From: an uncultured Legionellales bacterium
GTDB taxonomy: Bacteria > Pseudomonadota > Gammaproteobacteria > Eutrophobiales > Eutrophobiaceae
Direction: 5' to 3'
DNA: 37,124 nucleotides
Assembly (NCBI GenBank): GCA_913046215.1
Contig: CAJWRJ010000016.1
Coordinates: forward strand, 1-37,124
The notes under the pieces are model-generated. The model had not been told where the DNA came from. It did not search any database and saw nothing but the letters and a program-made list of their open reading frames with translations. Both the position numbers and the translations under genes were made by a program. How positions within the stretch are numbered: the stretch's first letter is position 1; each line of letters opens with the position of its first letter. This document shows, piece by piece, positions 6,555 through 26,561 of this stretch.

Positions 6555-7004
6555 ATGATAAAGAACTTAAAATCATATCTGGATAATATCTTTCAGGAAG
6601 CTCAAAATGAAAATACATCACATCAAAATAAAATAGAACTAGCTACAGCTGTTCTAATGATTGAAATTAGTTTAGCTGATGAAAATACTGGCCCTGAAGA
6701 ATATGAAATCATAAAAAAAATATTATTAGAAAAATTTAATCTTGATAAAAAAAATATAGATGAACTCATATCGCTGGCTAGAGATGAAGTCGACCACATA
6801 GTGTCCTTACATGAATTTGCAGAAATAATAAATAATCATCTTTCAGCAAAGGAAAAATCTGAAATTATTGAGTATCTCTGGCGTGTTGCTTATGCTGATG
6901 CCTATATTCATAAATATGAAGAATATTACATCAGAAAAATTGCAGATTTATTACATGTCTCCCACTCTGATTACATTAAGACAAAATTAAAAGCCGAAAA
7001 ATAA
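6555..7004 (+). CDS. TerB-like (tellurite resistance protein B family) small helical protein
   Basis: This 149-residue, acidic, all-helical protein has the TerB-type layout. A first helix pair contains ATAVLMIEISLADENTGPEE (about 30-49). The second half repeats the theme with LWRVAYADAYIHKYEEYYI (about 107-125), where the paired acidic residues of the fold lie. No signal peptide or membrane segment is visible, so it is likely cytoplasmic. Stand-alone TerB-like proteins are common in proteobacteria and mostly uncharacterised; tellurite resistance should not be assumed, because no other ter genes are near. It stands alone on the plus strand, divergent from rsmE and convergent with metF, with one base between the two stops. 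A TATACT -10 candidate lies at 6507-6512; no Shine-Dalgarno is visible. Confidence 0.8.
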   Translation: MIKNLKSYLDNIFQEAQNENTSHQNKIELATAVLMIEISLADENTGPEEYEIIKKILLEKFNLDKKNIDELISLARDEVDHIVSLHEFAEIINNHLSAKEKSEIIEYLWRVAYADAYIHKYEEYYIRKIADLLHVSHSDYIKTKLKAEK

Positions 7005-7005
7005 T

Positions 7006-7872
7006 CTAGGCGGTCTGTCTTTCATCTAATCCGAGATTTTTCCAGATAAGATTGCTTGCAGCAGACCGATTCATGGTAAAGAAATGAAGTCCTGGTGTAC
7101 CGTTACTAAGTAGTTGATCGCATAGCTCGGTTACCACATCAACTCCAAATTTGAAGATAGCATCACGATCATCTCCAAAATCATATAATTGCTTCAATAT
7201 CCATCGTGGTATTTCCGCACCACATCCTTCGGAAAATCTAACTAATTGCGTGCAATTAGTGATTGGCATTATTCCCGCAACAATAGGCACATTAATATTA
7301 AGTTTCTCACAACACTCAACAAAACGGTAATAAGAGAATGGATTATAAAAATATTGTGTGATAGCACTATTAGCACCTGAATCAATTTTTCTTTTAAAAT
7401 TCTCAATATCCACTGCGGCACTTTTTGCTTGTGGATGGAACTCAGGATAAGCAGCAACCTCAATATGAAAATGATCACCTGTTTCTTTTCTTATAAATTC
7501 AACAAGTTCATTAGCATGTTGAAACTGGCCATAACCAACCGTTCCAGAGGGCAAATCTCCGCGAAGAACTACGATGCGCGTAATATCATGATCGATATAT
7601 TTTTGCAGCATTGACCTGATGTCATTATCCCAATTACCGACACAAGAAATATGTGGGACACATTCGATTCCTGTTTTATTACGGATATCCATGACTGTCT
7701 CAAAAGTCATATTCCGTGTACTTCCGCCAGCCCCATAAGTTACAGAAAAAAAATCGGGATTCAATTCTGCTAATTCAAGCTGCGTGCTTTGCAAACTAGC
7801 TATTGAATCTGGTGTTTTTGGTGAGTAACACTCAAAACTAAATTTTGGCCTATACTGTTTTTGTGATTGCAT
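7006..7872 (-). CDS. metF: 5,10-methylenetetrahydrofolate reductase
   Basis: It reduces 5,10-methylene-THF to 5-methyl-THF with FAD, supplying the methyl group for methionine synthase. At 288 residues it matches bacterial MetF. FSFECYSPKTP near residue 11 contains the catalytic Glu (E14). SVTYGAGGSTR (about 43-53) and the AITQYFYNPFSYYRF region are conserved TIM-barrel segments. It starts 5 bases after the ahcY stop, so both should share the promoter and SAH riboswitch upstream of ahcY. Its 3' end meets the TerB-like gene tail to tail. Confidence 0.96.
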   Translation of the reverse strand: MQSQKQYRPKFSFECYSPKTPDSIASLQSTQLELAELNPDFFSVTYGAGGSTRNMTFETVMDIRNKTGIECVPHISCVGNWDNDIRSMLQKYIDHDITRIVVLRGDLPSGTVGYGQFQHANELVEFIRKETGDHFHIEVAAYPEFHPQAKSAAVDIENFKRKIDSGANSAITQYFYNPFSYYRFVECCEKLNINVPIVAGIMPITNCTQLVRFSEGCGAEIPRWILKQLYDFGDDRDAIFKFGVDVVTELCDQLLSNGTPGLHFFTMNRSAASNLIWKNLGLDERQTA

Positions 7873-7877
7873 TAGCC

Positions 7878-9293
7878 CTAATACCTGTAATGATCTGACT
7901 TATACGGTCCCTCAATCTCGACATTAATGTATTCGGCTTGCTCCTTAGTTAAAGCTGTTAGTTTCGCTCCAATCCTATCAAGATGTAATCGCGCTACTTT
8001 TTCATCAAGATGTTTAGGTAAGACATAAACATCATTTTCGTATTTTTCACCCTCAGTAAACAACTCAATTTGTGCGAGAACTTGATTAGTAAATGAATTT
8101 GACATGACAAAGCTTGGGTGACCAGTTGCACAACCTAAATTAACTAAACGCCCTTTTGCCAAAAGTATAATACGCTTTCCATCGGGAAAAATAACGTGAT
8201 CAACTTGAGGTTTAATTTCCTCCCAATCATATTTTTCTAAACTTGCAACATCAATCTCATTATCAAAATGACCAATATTACAAACAATTGCTTGATCTTT
8301 CATACCGAGCATGTGCTCATGGCGAATGATATTAAAATTACCAGTTGCAGTTACAAATATATCTACTTTATCTATAACATCTTCTAATGTAACAATTCGG
8401 AATCCTTCCATTGAAGCCTGCAAGGCACAAATCGGGTCAATTTCAGTTACCCAAACAGTTGCACCTAGACCACGTAATGATTGTGCACTTCCCTTCCCAA
8501 CATCACCATAGCCCAGAACTAATGCTACTTTTCCGGCAACCATAACGTCAGTTGCACGTTTTATACCATCTACTAATGATTCCCTGCAGCCATATAAATT
8601 ATCAAATTTCGATTTAGTTACGGAATCGTTAACGTTAATTGCAGAAAATGATAACTCCCCTTTTTTCTTCATTTGATATAAACGTTGGACTCCGGTTGTT
8701 GTTTCTTCCGTGACGCCTTTAATTGAAGACAACGTACGAGAATAAAAGTCCTTATCCTTCGCTAATCTCTTCTTTATTGATGCAAACAGGTATATTTCTT
8801 CTTCAGATTCAGGATTTTCAATGACCGATGGGTCTTTTTCTGCTTTAGAACCCAGCACTAGTAGTAGAGTGGCATCGCCTCCATCATCTAAAATCATATT
8901 TGGTGAACCGCCATCGGACCAGGTCATAATCTGATGTGTATAATCCCAATACTCCTCAAGTGTCTCGCCTTTATATGCGAATACAGGTATGCCTTGCTCA
9001 GCAATTGCGGCTGCAGCATGATCTTGAGTTGAGAAAATATTACATGATACCCAGCGAACTTCCGCACCCAATGCACACAAGGTTTCGATCAAAACAGCTG
9101 TTTGAATCGTCATATGAATTGAGCCCGCGATTCTTGCACCCTTTAGAGGTTTTTTATCTGCGTACTCTTTTCGAATTGCCATAAGCCCTGGCATCTCGGT
9201 TTCTGCAATTCGAATTTCTTTGTGCCCCCAATCAGCTAGAGTGATATCGGCGACATGATAGTCAGATGAAACTGGTGTTGCTGCTACGCTCAT
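7878..9293 (-). CDS. ahcY: S-adenosyl-L-homocysteine hydrolase
   Basis: It hydrolyses SAH to homocysteine and adenosine with bound NAD, relieving product inhibition of methyltransferases. The long bacterial form (about 470 residues) is present, with the extra segment around residues 145-190. NAD-binding [10 protein letters not shown] lies near residue 260 and the family C-terminus ends in YKSDHYRY. The start is placed at ATG 9293 (MSVAATPV), because AAGGAG sits at 9306-9301, 7 bases upstream. An in-frame ATG at 9314 would add seven residues (MFIRRNN) but lies upstream of that Shine-Dalgarno, almost against the riboswitch. First gene of ahcY-metF. Confidence 0.97.
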
Positions 9294-9318
9294 ATTGTTT
9301 CTCCTTATAAACAAAATA

Positions 9319-9389
9319 AGCGAGCGCCGTTGGAATAGTTTTGTCTTTATCTGAGCCTAGCGGATAATATCCGTCGCAACGCTCCTCAG
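9319..9389 (-). promoter_or_regulatory. SAH riboswitch in the ahcY leader
   Basis: The minus strand reads CTGAGGAGCGTTGCGACGG ... CTAGGCTCAG ... AACGGCGCTCGC, matching the S-adenosylhomocysteine aptamer known upstream of ahcY in proteobacteria. Pairings visible: GAGCG (9384-9380) with CGCTC (9326-9322); a hairpin CGGAT/ATCCG; and the pseudoknot CTGAG (9389-9385) with CTCAG (9355-9351). The last is a compensated change from the usual CCGAG/CTCGG, as I recall that consensus. Just downstream CTTAT (9320-9316) can pair with ATAAG (9308-9304), covering part of the AAGGAG ribosome site. No terminator is visible, so control is probably at translation. SAH riboswitches are ON switches: SAH should raise ahcY-metF expression. 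Confidence 0.93.
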
Positions 9390-9418
9390 AAAGACTTTTT
9401 ATAACTTTACAGCAGAGG

Positions 9419-9447
9419 AGTATAATCCTCTCTATATTAAGTTTCAA
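9419..9447 (-). promoter_or_regulatory. Sigma70 promoter of ahcY-metF
   Basis: On the minus strand TTGAAA (9447-9442) and TATACT (9424-9419) are spaced exactly 17 bases apart. Transcription should start near 9412, about 22 bases before the riboswitch core. The promoter lies just after the metK stop, so ahcY-metF can be transcribed separately from metK. A near-palindrome, AGAGGA-N6-TCCTCT, spans the -10. Confidence 0.75.
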
Positions 9448-9451
9448 AGAA

Positions 9452-10615
9452 TTACATCAATTGCTGCTTCAAAACCTGGGCTTTATCTGTCCTCTCCCAG
9501 GGCAAATCAATATCTGATCGGCCAAAGTGCCCATAAGCCGCTGTTTTTTGGTAAATTGGTCTCAACAAATCGAGCATTTTAATAATGCCTTTTGGTCTAA
9601 GATCAAAATTCTTGCGAATCGCAATAATTAACTTTTCATGATCAACGGTGCTCGTACCAAATGTTTCAATATTAATGGATGTCGGTTCGGCAACACCAAT
9701 CGCATATGACACTTGTATTTCGCATCGCTTAGCAAGCCCAGCAGCAACAACATTCTTGGCTACATAGCGAGCCGCATAAGCAGCTGATCGATCAACTTTT
9801 GAGGGATCTTTTCCAGAAAAAGCACCGCCTCCATGCCTCGACATTCCACCATAAGTATCAACAATAATTTTTCGTCCTGTTAAACCACAATCACCAACAG
9901 GTCCGCCTATGACAAATCTTCCAGTCGGGTTTACTAAAAAACGCGTTTCATTATTAATCATATTTTCAGGAAGAACAGGTTTAATAATTTCATTGATAAC
10001 TGCTTTTTCTATTTCTTCATGTTCAATCTCTGGATCATGTTGGGTAGATAAAACTATTGTATCAATCGAAACTGGAGTTTCATTTTCATAGACAACTGTT
10101 ACTTGCGATTTAGCGTCTGGTCTTAACCATTCAAGCGCACCACTCTTTCTAATATCAGCTTGTTTTTTGACAAGCAAATGTGCATAGGTAATTGGACATG
10201 GCATCAAAACATCTGTCTCATCACAAGCATAGCCGAACATCAAACCCTGATCCCCTGCGCCTTGATCTAGATCCATTCCCTGGCCTTCATTAACACCCTG
10301 TGCAATATCAGGTGATTGTTTGTCAATTGATATTAGTACCTCACAATTATCTGAATCGAAACCTATTTCGTCTGATGTGTAACCAATTTCACGAATCGTA
10401 TCGCGAGCAACTGTTTCATAATCAATATTTGCTGATGTTGTAATCTCACCAGATAACACTACCATCCCAGTATTAATCATAGTTTCACAAGCAATGCGTG
10501 CAGACGGGTCTTCATTGAAGATTGCATCAACAATTGAATCAGAAATTTGGTCGGCCACCTTATCTGGATGCCCTTCAGAGACAGATTCTGAAGTAAATAA
10601 ACTTGTCTTAGCCAT
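9452..10615 (-). CDS. metK: S-adenosylmethionine synthetase (methionine adenosyltransferase)
   Basis: It makes SAM from methionine and ATP as a cytoplasmic homotetramer needing Mg and K ions. At 387 residues it matches bacterial Met[17 protein letters not shown] (8-23) holds ATP/Mg ligands. [12 protein letters not shown] (about 118-129) and [16 protein letters not shown] (about 256-271, the phosphate loop) are the two family signatures. AGAGAG lies close upstream of the ATG at 10615. It precedes ahcY-metF on the same strand, but those have their own promoter and riboswitch. Divergent from the thioredoxin-fold gene across 129 AT-rich bases, where I see no SAM riboswitch. Confidence 0.98.
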
Positions 10616-10744
10616 ACTCTCTTTTTTAAGTTTTTATCGTTATAGGAAGTTTATCCTTAATAGAAAAATATCTCACGAACTAAAAAGCCATTTTAAAAAA
10701 AATAAAATTCTTACATTAATTTTAATATTAGGTAGTATTAATTT

Positions 10745-11299
10745 ATGGTTTTAAAAGAAACTCCTACATGCAACTTTGATGAAAAAGCATTTGATTTTAA
10801 ATTAATTGGAACCGATGAGAAAATATGGACATTGACTGATTGCGCCGGAACCAACGGCACTTTGATAATGTTTATTTGCAACCATTGTCCATACGTCAAA
10901 GCAATTCAATCAAAATTAGTAGAAGATGCCCGTAAATTACTAGAAGTTGGTATAAAAAGTGTAGCAATCATGTCGAATGATCCTCAAGATTACCCAGAAG
11001 ATTCTTTTGAAAATATGAAAAAAATATCCGAAAAATATAACTATCCCTTCCCGTACCTATTCGATGAAACACAAGAAGTTGCCAAGACTTATGATGCGGT
11101 TTGCACACCTGATTTTTTTGGCTACAACAAATCTCTTGAATTACAATATAGAGGTCGTTTCGACGAAACCGGCATGACTCCATCAAAAAACAAATCGAAC
11201 CATGATTTATTAGAAGCGATGATAATGGTCGCCAAAACATCAAAAGGCCCTCAAAAACAAATTCCCAGTATGGGTTGTTCCATTAAATGGAAAATATAA
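10745..11299 (+). CDS. Thioredoxin-fold / AhpC-TSA-like (PRX-like) family protein
   Basis: This 184-residue protein has the thioredoxin-fold layout: LIMFICNHCPYVKAIQ (about 40-55) puts a CxxC (Cys45, Cys48) at the start of the active-site helix, and TPDFFGYNKSLELQYRGRFD (about 116-135) is the cis-Pro side of the fold. The CNHCPYV form marks a bacterial peroxiredoxin-like subfamily whose substrate is not established. It ends in PSMGCSIKWK, with a further conserved Cys. No signal peptide, so cytoplasmic. A thiol-disulfide or peroxide-related role is inferred. Single gene on the plus strand, 210 bases before tkt. Confidence 0.85.
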   Translation: MVLKETPTCNFDEKAFDFKLIGTDEKIWTLTDCAGTNGTLIMFICNHCPYVKAIQSKLVEDARKLLEVGIKSVAIMSNDPQDYPEDSFENMKKISEKYNYPFPYLFDETQEVAKTYDAVCTPDFFGYNKSLELQYRGRFDETGMTPSKNKSNHDLLEAMIMVAKTSKGPQKQIPSMGCSIKWKI

Positions 11300-11410
11300 T
11301 TGTCTAGAAACTTGCTGCAATCCTATAGGTAAGGGACAATATCAAGATAGATTTATGTAATCTGGTCGTCTGCATCAACAAGTTTTATAAGATTTTTTAT
11401 GCCAATAAGG

Positions 11411-11439
11411 TAATCATCTTGATTATTTTGGTCATAATC
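11411..11439. promoter_or_regulatory. Overlapping inverted repeats upstream of the tkt operon
   Basis: Two perfect inverted repeats share a central arm: TAATCA-TCT-TGATTA (11411-11425) and GATTAT-N7-ATAATC (11421-11439). They lie 71-99 bases before the tkt start, in a 210-base gene-free leader. They could be an operator for a dimeric regulator or alternative RNA hairpins. I find no convincing -35/-10 pair in this leader, so the operon promoter is unplaced. Confidence 0.35.
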
Positions 11440-11509
11440 TCACCAAACTTACTGCATCGCCGATTGGCTTTGATTTTAATGGCTATTTTACCTAAAAAAG
11501 GGGAAAAAC

Positions 11510-13519
11510 ATGCTGGAAAAGCATAATTTAGCAAATGCAATTCGTGCCTTAAGCATGGATGCGGTGCAACGTGCCAATTCAGGTCATCCAGGGGCGCCAA
11601 TGGGTATGGCAGATATTGCGGAAGTGCTTTGGAATGATTTTTTAAAACATAACCCTAATAATCCAAATTGGGATAACCGTGATCGCTTTGTTATGTCAAA
11701 CGGTCATGGCTCTATGCTCATTTATGCCTTACTTCATCTGAGTGGTTATGATTTGCCGATGGAGGAGATCAAAAACTTTAGACAGTTACACTCGAAGACA
11801 CCTGGTCATCCAGAGTATGGTTATGCGCCTGGTATAGAAACGACAACAGGACCGCTTGGTCAGGGGCTAGCAAATGCAGTAGGTATGGCACTAGCTGAAT
11901 CTGTACTTTCTGCAAAATTTAATAGGGATGACCTCGATATTATTAACCACCATACCTATGTCACCGTTGGTGATGGCTGTTTAATGGAGGGCGTTTCCCA
12001 TGAGTCGTGTTCATTGGCGGGAACGCTTGGTTTAGGTAAATTAGTTGCGATTTACGATAGCAATCAAATCTCGATAGATGGTGATGTTGCTGGTTGGTTT
12101 ACCGAGGACATTCCAAAACGGTTTGAATCATATGGTTGGCATGTTGTTCGTGATATTGATGGACATAATCCAAAAGAAATCAAAAGGGCACTAGAAAGCG
12201 CGATTAAGAATACATCGCAACCTAGCATTCTTTGTTGTAATACTGTAATTGGCTGGGGATCTCCAAATAAAGCAGGCAAAGAATCAAGTCATGGTGCTCC
12301 GCTCGGTGATGAAGAAATTCAACTTACAAGAAAAGAACTTGGCTGGGAGCATGAGCCCTTCGATATACCTGATGAATATTATGCTGCATGGGATGCAAAA
12401 CCAAATGGTGAGAAATTGGAAAGTGCGTGGCAAAAAAAACTTTTATCGTATGAAAAAAAATATCCTGAACTGGCTGCTGAGTACAAACGTAGAATGCAAA
12501 ATGAATTTCCCTCTAATTGGTCTGATGTCGTTGATAGATATTTAAATTCAACAGTAGAAAAAGCTGAATCACTAGCCACACGAAAAGCATCACAAAATGC
12601 AATTGAAGCCTATGCGAAACATCTGCCCGAAATGATTGGTGGATCTGCTGATCTTACTGGATCTAATTTAACAAATTGGTCGGGTTCAATCATGATTGAT
12701 AGAAAAAATAAAGATGGTAATTATATATCATATGGTGTGCGTGAATTCGCAATGGCTGCAATTAATAATGGAATTTCTCTGCATAAAGGATTCATTCCGT
12801 ATTCTGGTACTTTTCTCATGTTTTCTGAATACGCTAGAAATGCACTGCGTATGGCAGCACTAATGAAAATTCAAAATATTTTCGTATTTACACATGACTC
12901 TATCGGCCTAGGTGAGGATGGGCCAACACATCAAGCGGTGGAACAAGCCTCAACATTAAGATTAATGCCTAATATGTCATTATGGAGACCTTGTGATGCA
13001 GTGGAGTCAGCGATAGCTTGGCAAGCAGCAATTGAACGTGATAATGGCCCAACAAGCTTATTGCTTTCGAGACAAAATCTAGCGCATCTAAAAAGAACAG
13101 AATCACAACTTCAAAATATAAAACGTGGTGGATATACACTAATCGAGGGAAGCCAAAAACCTGAAGCTATTATTATAGCGACGGGTTCAGAAGTTGAAAT
13201 GGCTCTTAACGTAGCCACAAGATTAAATGCAAATAATAAAAATATTAGAGTTGTTTCTATGCCAAGTGCTGATGTCTTTGATGCTCAGGAGGAGGGTTAT
13301 AAAGAAACTGTCCTGCCTTTTTCTTGTCGAAATCGTATTGCAATAGAAGCTGGGGTAACAGATTACTGGAAAAAGTATACCGGCTTAGATGGTTTGGCTT
13401 TAGGTGTAGATACTTTTGGAGAATCAGCCCCAGCTAAAAAAGTATTTGAACATTTTGGATTGACAGAAAACAGTCTCGAGAAAACAATTATTAATTTTTT
13501 AGAGCAAAAGAAAAAATAA
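11510..13519 (+). CDS. tkt: Transketolase
   Basis: It moves two-carbon ketol units between sugar phosphates using thiamine diphosphate, linking the pentose phosphate pathway to glycolysis. At 669 residues it is full length. [16 protein letters not shown] (21-36) contains the active-site His26. [12 protein letters not shown] is the ThDP/Mg motif, and [14 protein letters not shown], in the pyrimidine domain, is followed by the C-terminal domain. Start ATG 11510 has a purine-rich GGGG ribosome site 6 bases upstream. First gene of tkt-gap-pgk-pyk-fba, with 21 bases to gap. In autotrophs this order can serve the Calvin cycle, but no key Calvin enzyme is in the window. Confidence 0.98.
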
Positions 13520-26371: not shown

Positions 26372-26561
26372 GGGTGTCTTCTGTCATGTTCGTTATCAAG
26401 CTCGTGGTAACTTGAGCCGATAAGATATAAAACAGGGGATCTTTAATCAGTATTGTTGTGCATGTCCATCCACGTGGAAAGCCTGAAATGCTGGCTTAGA
26501 TACCCACTTGAACCTCTGGTTCAAGTTCAATGCCTCTGAAACGACATCATGGTTGATACCC
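26372..26561 (+). ncRNA. ssrS: 6S RNA
   Basis: The roughly 190-base region after zapA matches the 6S RNA fold and several conserved stretches of the E. coli RNA (184 bases). The closing stem pairs GGGTGTC (26372-26378) with GATACCC (26555-26561), continued by ATGTT (26386-26390) with GACAT (26543-26547). TTGAGCCGATA (26412-26422) is like E. coli CTGAGCCGATA. The distal hairpin ACTTGAACC-TCT-GGTTCAAGT (26506-26526) matches the E. coli TTGAACC/GGTTCAA hairpin. 6S RNA mimics an open promoter and binds sigma70 RNA polymerase, lowering transcription in stationary phase. Exact ends are uncertain by a few bases; a TATAAG at 26354-26359 may be its -10. Confidence 0.92.

Follow-up and report, generated by a model that had tools for sequence, protein, structure and literature searches.

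The stretch of DNA analysed here, referred to throughout as the window, comprises 37,124 nucleotides of one contig from an uncultured Legionellales bacterium. On its minus strand, metK is followed by an SAH aptamer (9393-9315), ahcY and metF, with metF beginning 5 bases past the end of ahcY. Gene names were assigned with NCBIfam models, all of which scored above their cut-offs. The genes and promoter elements are listed below.

9452..10615, minus strand: metK, methionine adenosyltransferase, upstream of the promoter match (TIGR01034, 614 bits, cut-off 309.4)
9442..9447, minus strand: -35 box TTGAAA (consensus scan, 10/12 together with the -10 box)
9419..9424, minus strand: -10 box TATACT (consensus scan; family comparison)
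7878..9293, minus strand: ahcY, adenosylhomocysteinase, 471 aa (TIGR00936, 625 bits, cut-off 497.6, scanned from 9287)
7006..7872, minus strand: metF, methylenetetrahydrofolate reductase (TIGR00676, 313 bits, cut-off 293.7)

The open reading frame called automatically for ahcY has TTG at 9314 as its first codon. Judged from the sequence, the true start is the ATG at 9293, which lies about five to seven bases 3' of AAGGAG, as it does in relatives. The gene shares 86-93% identity with ahcY from marine gammaproteobacterial MAGs that bear labels such as 'Legionellales bacterium'. Elsewhere in the window, a 6S RNA (RF00013) was matched at 26375-26559 on the plus strand with 86.2 bits.

A sigma-70-like match, TTGAAA-17-TATACT (9447-9419), starts four bases past the metK stop. 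Promoter-type matches were no more frequent in this region than in shuffles; most ahcY leaders of the family have a match of similar spelling at a similar distance in front of them. The message probably begins near 9412, and the promoter match would let ahcY-metF be transcribed without metK. A start at this position, after metK, would place metK outside the switch, which agrees with the regulon described in the accessible text of PMC4239095. The suggestion in the initial annotation that ahcY-metF is controlled separately from metK therefore gains support from the promoter match and its counterparts in the family. Its observation that the leader lacks a terminator was likewise borne out, as the two terminator-like sites in 6900-11600 both fall at 9612-9697 within metK and none in the leader.

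An inverted repeat at 9431-9414 (minus strand), AGAGGA-TTATAC-TCCTCT, spans the -10 box. Repeats spanning the -10 box, with changing arms, are also seen in the ahcY leaders L124, L148, L028, L130 and L009; in L124 and L148 the arms GCGGGAGTA-TACTCCCGC are followed by a T-run. Such a repeat is possibly a metK terminator hairpin that overlaps the ahcY promoter.

Between the promoter match and ahcY lie the elements of the aptamer.

9315..9393, minus strand: SAH riboswitch aptamer RF01057 (cmscan 66.5 bits, gathering cut-off 37, model 1-78 complete)
9390-9385 with 9355-9350, minus strand: P1, which holds CTGAG/CTCAG (Rfam structure line)
9373-9370 with 9364-9361, minus strand: P2 (Rfam structure line)
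9384-9380, minus strand: pseudoknot 5' strand GAGCG, partner 9326-9322
9326-9322, minus strand: pseudoknot 3' strand CGCUC, common to the aptamer and the predicted sequestering hairpin

On-switching, the aptamer and the target genes are known for the SAH riboswitch class, which was reportedly described by Wang et al. in 2008. The full-length covariance-model match confirmed the SAH aptamer that had been read in this leader, and it is the only RF01057 match found in a search of the whole 1.40 Mb genome. The SAM/SAH riboswitch RF01727 was unmatched by cmscan of the window. As in other RF01057 members, which stand before SAM-cycle genes (ahcY, metF, metH), the genes downstream are ahcY and then metF. 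This pair is given as the core regulon of SAH riboswitches in Proteobacteria (PMC4239095), and for the class the reported Kd is 20 nM, with a selectivity of at least 1000-fold (PMC11188199).

The initial annotation had described CTGAG/CTCAG as a compensated pseudoknot. The compensated pairing stood: CTGAG (9389-9385) is complementary to CTCAG (9355-9351), and one C-G pair of the Rfam consensus is U-A here. The assignment did not, as this helix is P1 and the pseudoknot is GAGCG/CGCUC according to the Rfam structure line. In a table of PMC7392346, AGGCUC is assigned to P1. Across 41 family leaders the changed pair is UA in 24, CG in 11 and UG in 6; U-A is the commonest state of this pair in the family, and the change is not special.

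Covariation of the aptamer helices was evaluated in 41 of the 42 family ahcY leaders, with L120 excluded for its long insert before the start. P1 was paired in 97.2% of cells and showed both-sided changes at 4/6 pairs, P2 was paired in 97.0% with such changes at 4/4 pairs, and the pseudoknot was paired in 100% with both-sided change at 2/5 pairs. Altogether, 98.0% of 615 cells were paired and 10 of the 15 pairs had a both-sided change somewhere. Both sides had changed in 62 cells, a count equalled in 0/500 shuffles; similarly, for pairing, changed cells and covariation alike, the observed value was reached in 0/500 shuffles, and pairing fell to 22-46% when the strands were slid. On its sequence, the aptamer is a genuine SAH riboswitch of the known class RF01057. 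A degenerate or non-functional aptamer has almost no chance of being the correct description: one-base insertions in the P1-pseudoknot linker are the only oddity in its favour, and they stand against a score that is second highest of the 76 family matches. Translational control of ahcY-metF, as initially proposed, is supported by the covariance score, the helix covariation in 41 relatives, the position of ahcY as the next gene downstream and the terminator-less leader.

The manner of this control was approached through the predicted structures around the ribosome site, which involve the following elements.

9280..9327, minus strand: predicted sequestering hairpin (9327-9316 with 9293-9280, two one-base bulges; 9314-9309 with 9300-9295)
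9301..9306, minus strand: Shine-Dalgarno AAGGAG of ahcY (sequence; unpaired probability 0.99 in both modelled states)
9285..9293, minus strand: ahcY start ATG AGC GTA (codons 1-3), predicted hairpin partner strand (codon constraint)

The initial annotation had placed a short hairpin across the ribosome site, CTTAT (9320-9316) with ATAAG (9308-9304), overlapping AAGGAG (9306-9301). The three positions are correct and the bases are complementary there, and all five pairs are intact in L020 and L119, two family neighbours from the genus. Control of translation by this hairpin is very improbable all the same, since its energy alone is -0.3 kcal/mol and its ensemble probability is 0.00 with or without the pseudoknot strands held. 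Conservation is also lacking: 59.7% of aligned cells are paired, versus 81.5% when the alignment is slid by one column, and all 5 pairs are kept in 3/6 genus members. Because this hairpin begins 3' of the pseudoknot strand and does not compete with the pseudoknot, it offers no switch, and SAH could not exert control by exclusion. Finally, CTTAT is taken by a far stronger pairing with ATGAG, through four Watson-Crick pairs and one G-U. In the computed folds, the annotation had the right 5' arm and the wrong partner, which is the ATGAG of the start codon instead.

In the fold of 9412-9231, the 5' arm GCGCUCGCUUAU (9327-9316) pairs with AUGAGCG-U-AGC-A-GC (9293-9280) and, in the upper part, UUGUUU (9314-9309) pairs with AAACAA (9300-9295), leaving a loop of 8 bases, AUAAGGAG (9308-9301), that contains the Shine-Dalgarno. 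This hairpin is the minimum-energy fold of 9412-9231 and of 9329-9255. Its energy is about -19 to -21 kcal/mol (-21.2 for 9329-9255; -19.3 for the segment ending at +24, with a z of -3.7 against shuffles). The pseudoknot strand CGCUC finds its hairpin partners in G9287, A9285, G9284, C9283 and G9281. A simple CGCTC/GAGCG register, with the pseudoknot strand on ATGAGCG, had a probability of 0.00; CGCUUAU/AUGAGCG plus GCU/AGC was preferred. Since the CTTAT arm is continuous with the pseudoknot strand, which the hairpin uses, the base of the hairpin and the pseudoknot are mutually exclusive. According to these models, the start codon lies in a computed helix that excludes the ligand-bound aptamer fold.

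Similar folds were computed for 40 of the 42 family ahcY leaders (L154 and L155 were left out). At least four of the five pseudoknot-strand bases pair at or beyond the start codon in 38/40, and at least two start-codon bases are paired in 35/40. The median z was -2.9, with 29/40 leaders at or below -2 and three leaders of one genus (L004, L013 and L023) near 0. Covariation in the hairpin alignment inside the family amounted to 2 cells changed on both sides, a value matched by 129/500 shuffles; the alignment is uninformative on this point because the lower and middle stem hardly varies within the family. L120, with its long insert, was left out of this alignment and of the opening-cost calculation described below. 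Support for the hairpin rests on consistency, on codon constraint and on a between-class test.

The codon constraint concerns the first codons of ahcY, examined over the first 190 codons in 41 loci (L013 was left out as short, and L028, whose start was misread, was counted as a miss at codons 2-3). Among 70 conserved columns with four- or six-fold degeneracy (median codon entropy 1.81 bits), Ser2 and Val3 rank lowest. Ser2 is encoded by AGC in 39/40 and AGT in 1 (0.17 bits), and Val3 by GTA in 35/39 and GTT in 4 (0.48 bits); AGC makes up 11% of the serine codons in 24 window genes. Ala4 ranks ninth, and its third base, which is unpaired in the hairpin, varies, matching what the hairpin pairing predicts. 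All 42 family riboswitch ahcY genes start [A/G]TG-AG[C/T]-G. GAGCG is present at the start in 41/42 family genes with a riboswitch versus 0/5 without (Fisher p 4e-6), a comparison that is not independent evidence, because the ahcY tree (L013, L028 and L151 left out as short) places the five riboswitch-less genes in other ahcY lineages.

The conserved ATGAGCGTAGC could alternatively reflect conservation of the protein (MSVA) or of the start-codon context in place of RNA pairing. This explanation, which we consider improbable, draws on the relatedness of the family ahcY genes, on the 39/42 that begin with ATG or GTG and then AGC GT, and on the riboswitch-less family genes, which come from other lineages and are not a clean control. 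It is opposed by the fixed choice of codon, and not of residue alone, at codons 2-3, with AGC a rare codon, and by the free variation of residues 5-9. The ATGAGCG start is found in 0/5 riboswitch-less family ahcY genes and is also absent from Kangiella (L037), Lysobacterales (L039) and Marinicella (L043), which lie inside the riboswitch-bearing part of the ahcY tree and have no SAH match within 3 kb upstream. In L134 and L139, moreover, the partner has moved to codons 4-7 and a perfect 7- or 9-pair match is kept. As a separate observation, five family genomes without a riboswitch (L158-L162) carry ahcY of other lineages, on long branches in the tree; from the sequences, ahcY replacement seems to accompany the absence of the switch.

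For the between-class test, the pairing of the pseudoknot strand was followed beyond ahcY. Searches of the family yielded 76 SAH matches in 45/53 genomes (the search of the whole order covered the same 53), with ahcY as the next gene in 42, metH in 33 and metK in 1. The genus with small genomes keeps only the ahcY copy (one SAH match per genome, six genomes), and no SAH riboswitch or remnant was found before metH of the genome that holds the window (L166 1034-1467). The between-class set added 27 aptamers from named contigs, including five before metK, to the family loci; L063 was left out of the coevolution tests, as its pseudoknot strand was not found. Over 41 distinct strands, the pseudoknot strand scored -14.0 with its own downstream partner versus -11.05 (sd 0.31) with permuted partners, a value reached in 0/10000 permutations. 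When the set was reduced to one locus per strand class (18 classes), every one of the 30 draws gave 0/2000 permutations. Across these 18 classes, the pseudoknot strand co-varies with its downstream partner; the own downstream sequence beats 95/100 of its shuffles in only 56/102 loci.

The partner differs amongst loci. In L111, before metH, CUCACUUAU pairs with AUAAGUGAG; in L068, before metK, CGCUCAUUA pairs with UAAUGAGCG; and in L064, CUCAUUUCUU pairs with AGGAGAUGAG over the Shine-Dalgarno. In L050, L055 and L057, outside the family, a terminator-like hairpin with a T-run has the pseudoknot strand as its 5' arm. From their sequences, these three ahcY switches look transcriptional.

In a group of metH leaders (L112, L116, L126, L131, L133, L144, L027 and relatives), an imperfect copy of the metH start (AAGCGA..AUGACGG) lies downstream of CUCGCUUA/UAAGCGAG. 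The stretch between the copy and the true start complements both (CCGUCAAUCGCUU-like). Read by eye, leaders such as L112 look like a three-helix antisequestor cascade.

Additionally, SAH riboswitches stand directly before metK in six loci (L147, L068, L069, L070, L078 and the second match of L093, 1484-1556), where the downstream metK is 61-71% to the window MetK by tblastn. L147 shares one contig of G006 with L151, which precedes ahcY, and L093 likewise has one SAH match before metK and another before ahcY. According to the available part of PMC4239095, metK is not under the control of SAH riboswitches, a rule that these six loci contradict.

Altogether, we assign a probability of about 0.72 to the reading that this leader is a member of RF01057 in which translation of ahcY(-metF) would be turned on at high SAH via the predicted start-codon-sequestering hairpin. 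Without SAH, the hairpin would form, bury the AUG and keep expression off; the 3' pseudoknot strand and the seven next bases would pair with the start codon and codons 2-4, and the Shine-Dalgarno would sit in the loop. SAH would stabilise the pseudoknot, so that the lower six hairpin pairs would be lost, opening by the ribosome would become cheaper and expression would be on. A ribosome docked at the loop Shine-Dalgarno may open the rest, or the upper stem may be unable to form against the P1-pseudoknot stack. Since the aptamer emerges before the hairpin during transcription, it may also be favoured by folding kinetics when SAH is present.

The on-state was modelled by simply holding the pseudoknot strand unpaired, with pseudoknot energies outside the model. 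Under this treatment, the cost of opening -13 to +13 in the window drops from 17.8 to 12.3 kcal/mol (by 5.5). The drop in relatives has a median of 4.8 kcal/mol and is at least 2 in 38/41, with L151 changing in the wrong direction (-2.3). The upper 12 pairs stay, and the AUG has an unpaired probability of 0.05. The modelled sign agrees with an on-switch, and the remaining cost is high.

The persistence of the upper stem, with 12.3 kcal/mol still needed for opening, speaks for a different reading, namely that the aptamer binds SAH while the hairpin is incidental or constitutive (setting a basal rate) and control runs via RNA stability or Rho-dependent termination of the untranslated message. 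The accessible text of PMC11487190 describes several other translational riboswitches that also act on message levels, which counts in its favour. We judge it unlikely, as the 18 classes show coevolution between the pseudoknot strand and its partner, and the terminator 5' arm of L050, L055 and L057 makes sense only if the pseudoknot competes.

Compared with RF01057 at large, the switch of this locus has the same aptamer architecture, score and position before ahcY-metF, with metK uncontrolled here; the aptamer shows no difference, and it is the predicted expression platform of this family that extends into the coding region. Other riboswitches are known to sequester a start codon, among them the add adenine riboswitch of Vibrio vulnificus, as far as the consulted part of PMC5847336 goes. 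The add aptamer is unrelated, and add reuses a P1 strand, whereas here the 3' pseudoknot strand would be reused and the Shine-Dalgarno sits in the loop (PMC5847336, in part). The E. coli thiC TPP riboswitch is alike in having the ribosome site and start codon in a stem-loop with mutually exclusive pairing; its ligand turns expression off, unlike SAH riboswitches, which turn it on (PMC5234074, in part). The SAM/SAH riboswitch RF01727 shares a pseudoknot and a related ligand (PMC7367207, in part) and occurs before metK in Rhodobacterales (PMC2864571, in part). For the SAH class, start-codon sequestration was found in none of the titles and abstracts of the open papers retrieved, a set in which the primary SAH papers fell outside the scope. 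What seems recordable, with no claim of priority, is that the ahcY coding start is a conserved switch strand in this family and that one exchange rule appears to serve several outputs.

On balance, we favour a class-wide rule by which the 3' pseudoknot strand and about seven next bases swap to a partner downstream, with lineage-specific outputs. These would be a terminator (L050, L055 and L057), the Shine-Dalgarno (e.g., L064 and L107), a leader hairpin before metH and, in this family, the ahcY start codon together with codons 2-7. If this is true, the ahcY coding sequence is itself a riboswitch element, under selection at synonymous sites, and a reporter fusion that ends at the start codon of such a leader would lack half of the switch. 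The hairpin model would also explain the frozen first codons of ahcY in this family, and would provide a base-resolution, testable mechanism for a small SAH on-switch in a streamlined, uncultured lineage of marine gammaproteobacteria.
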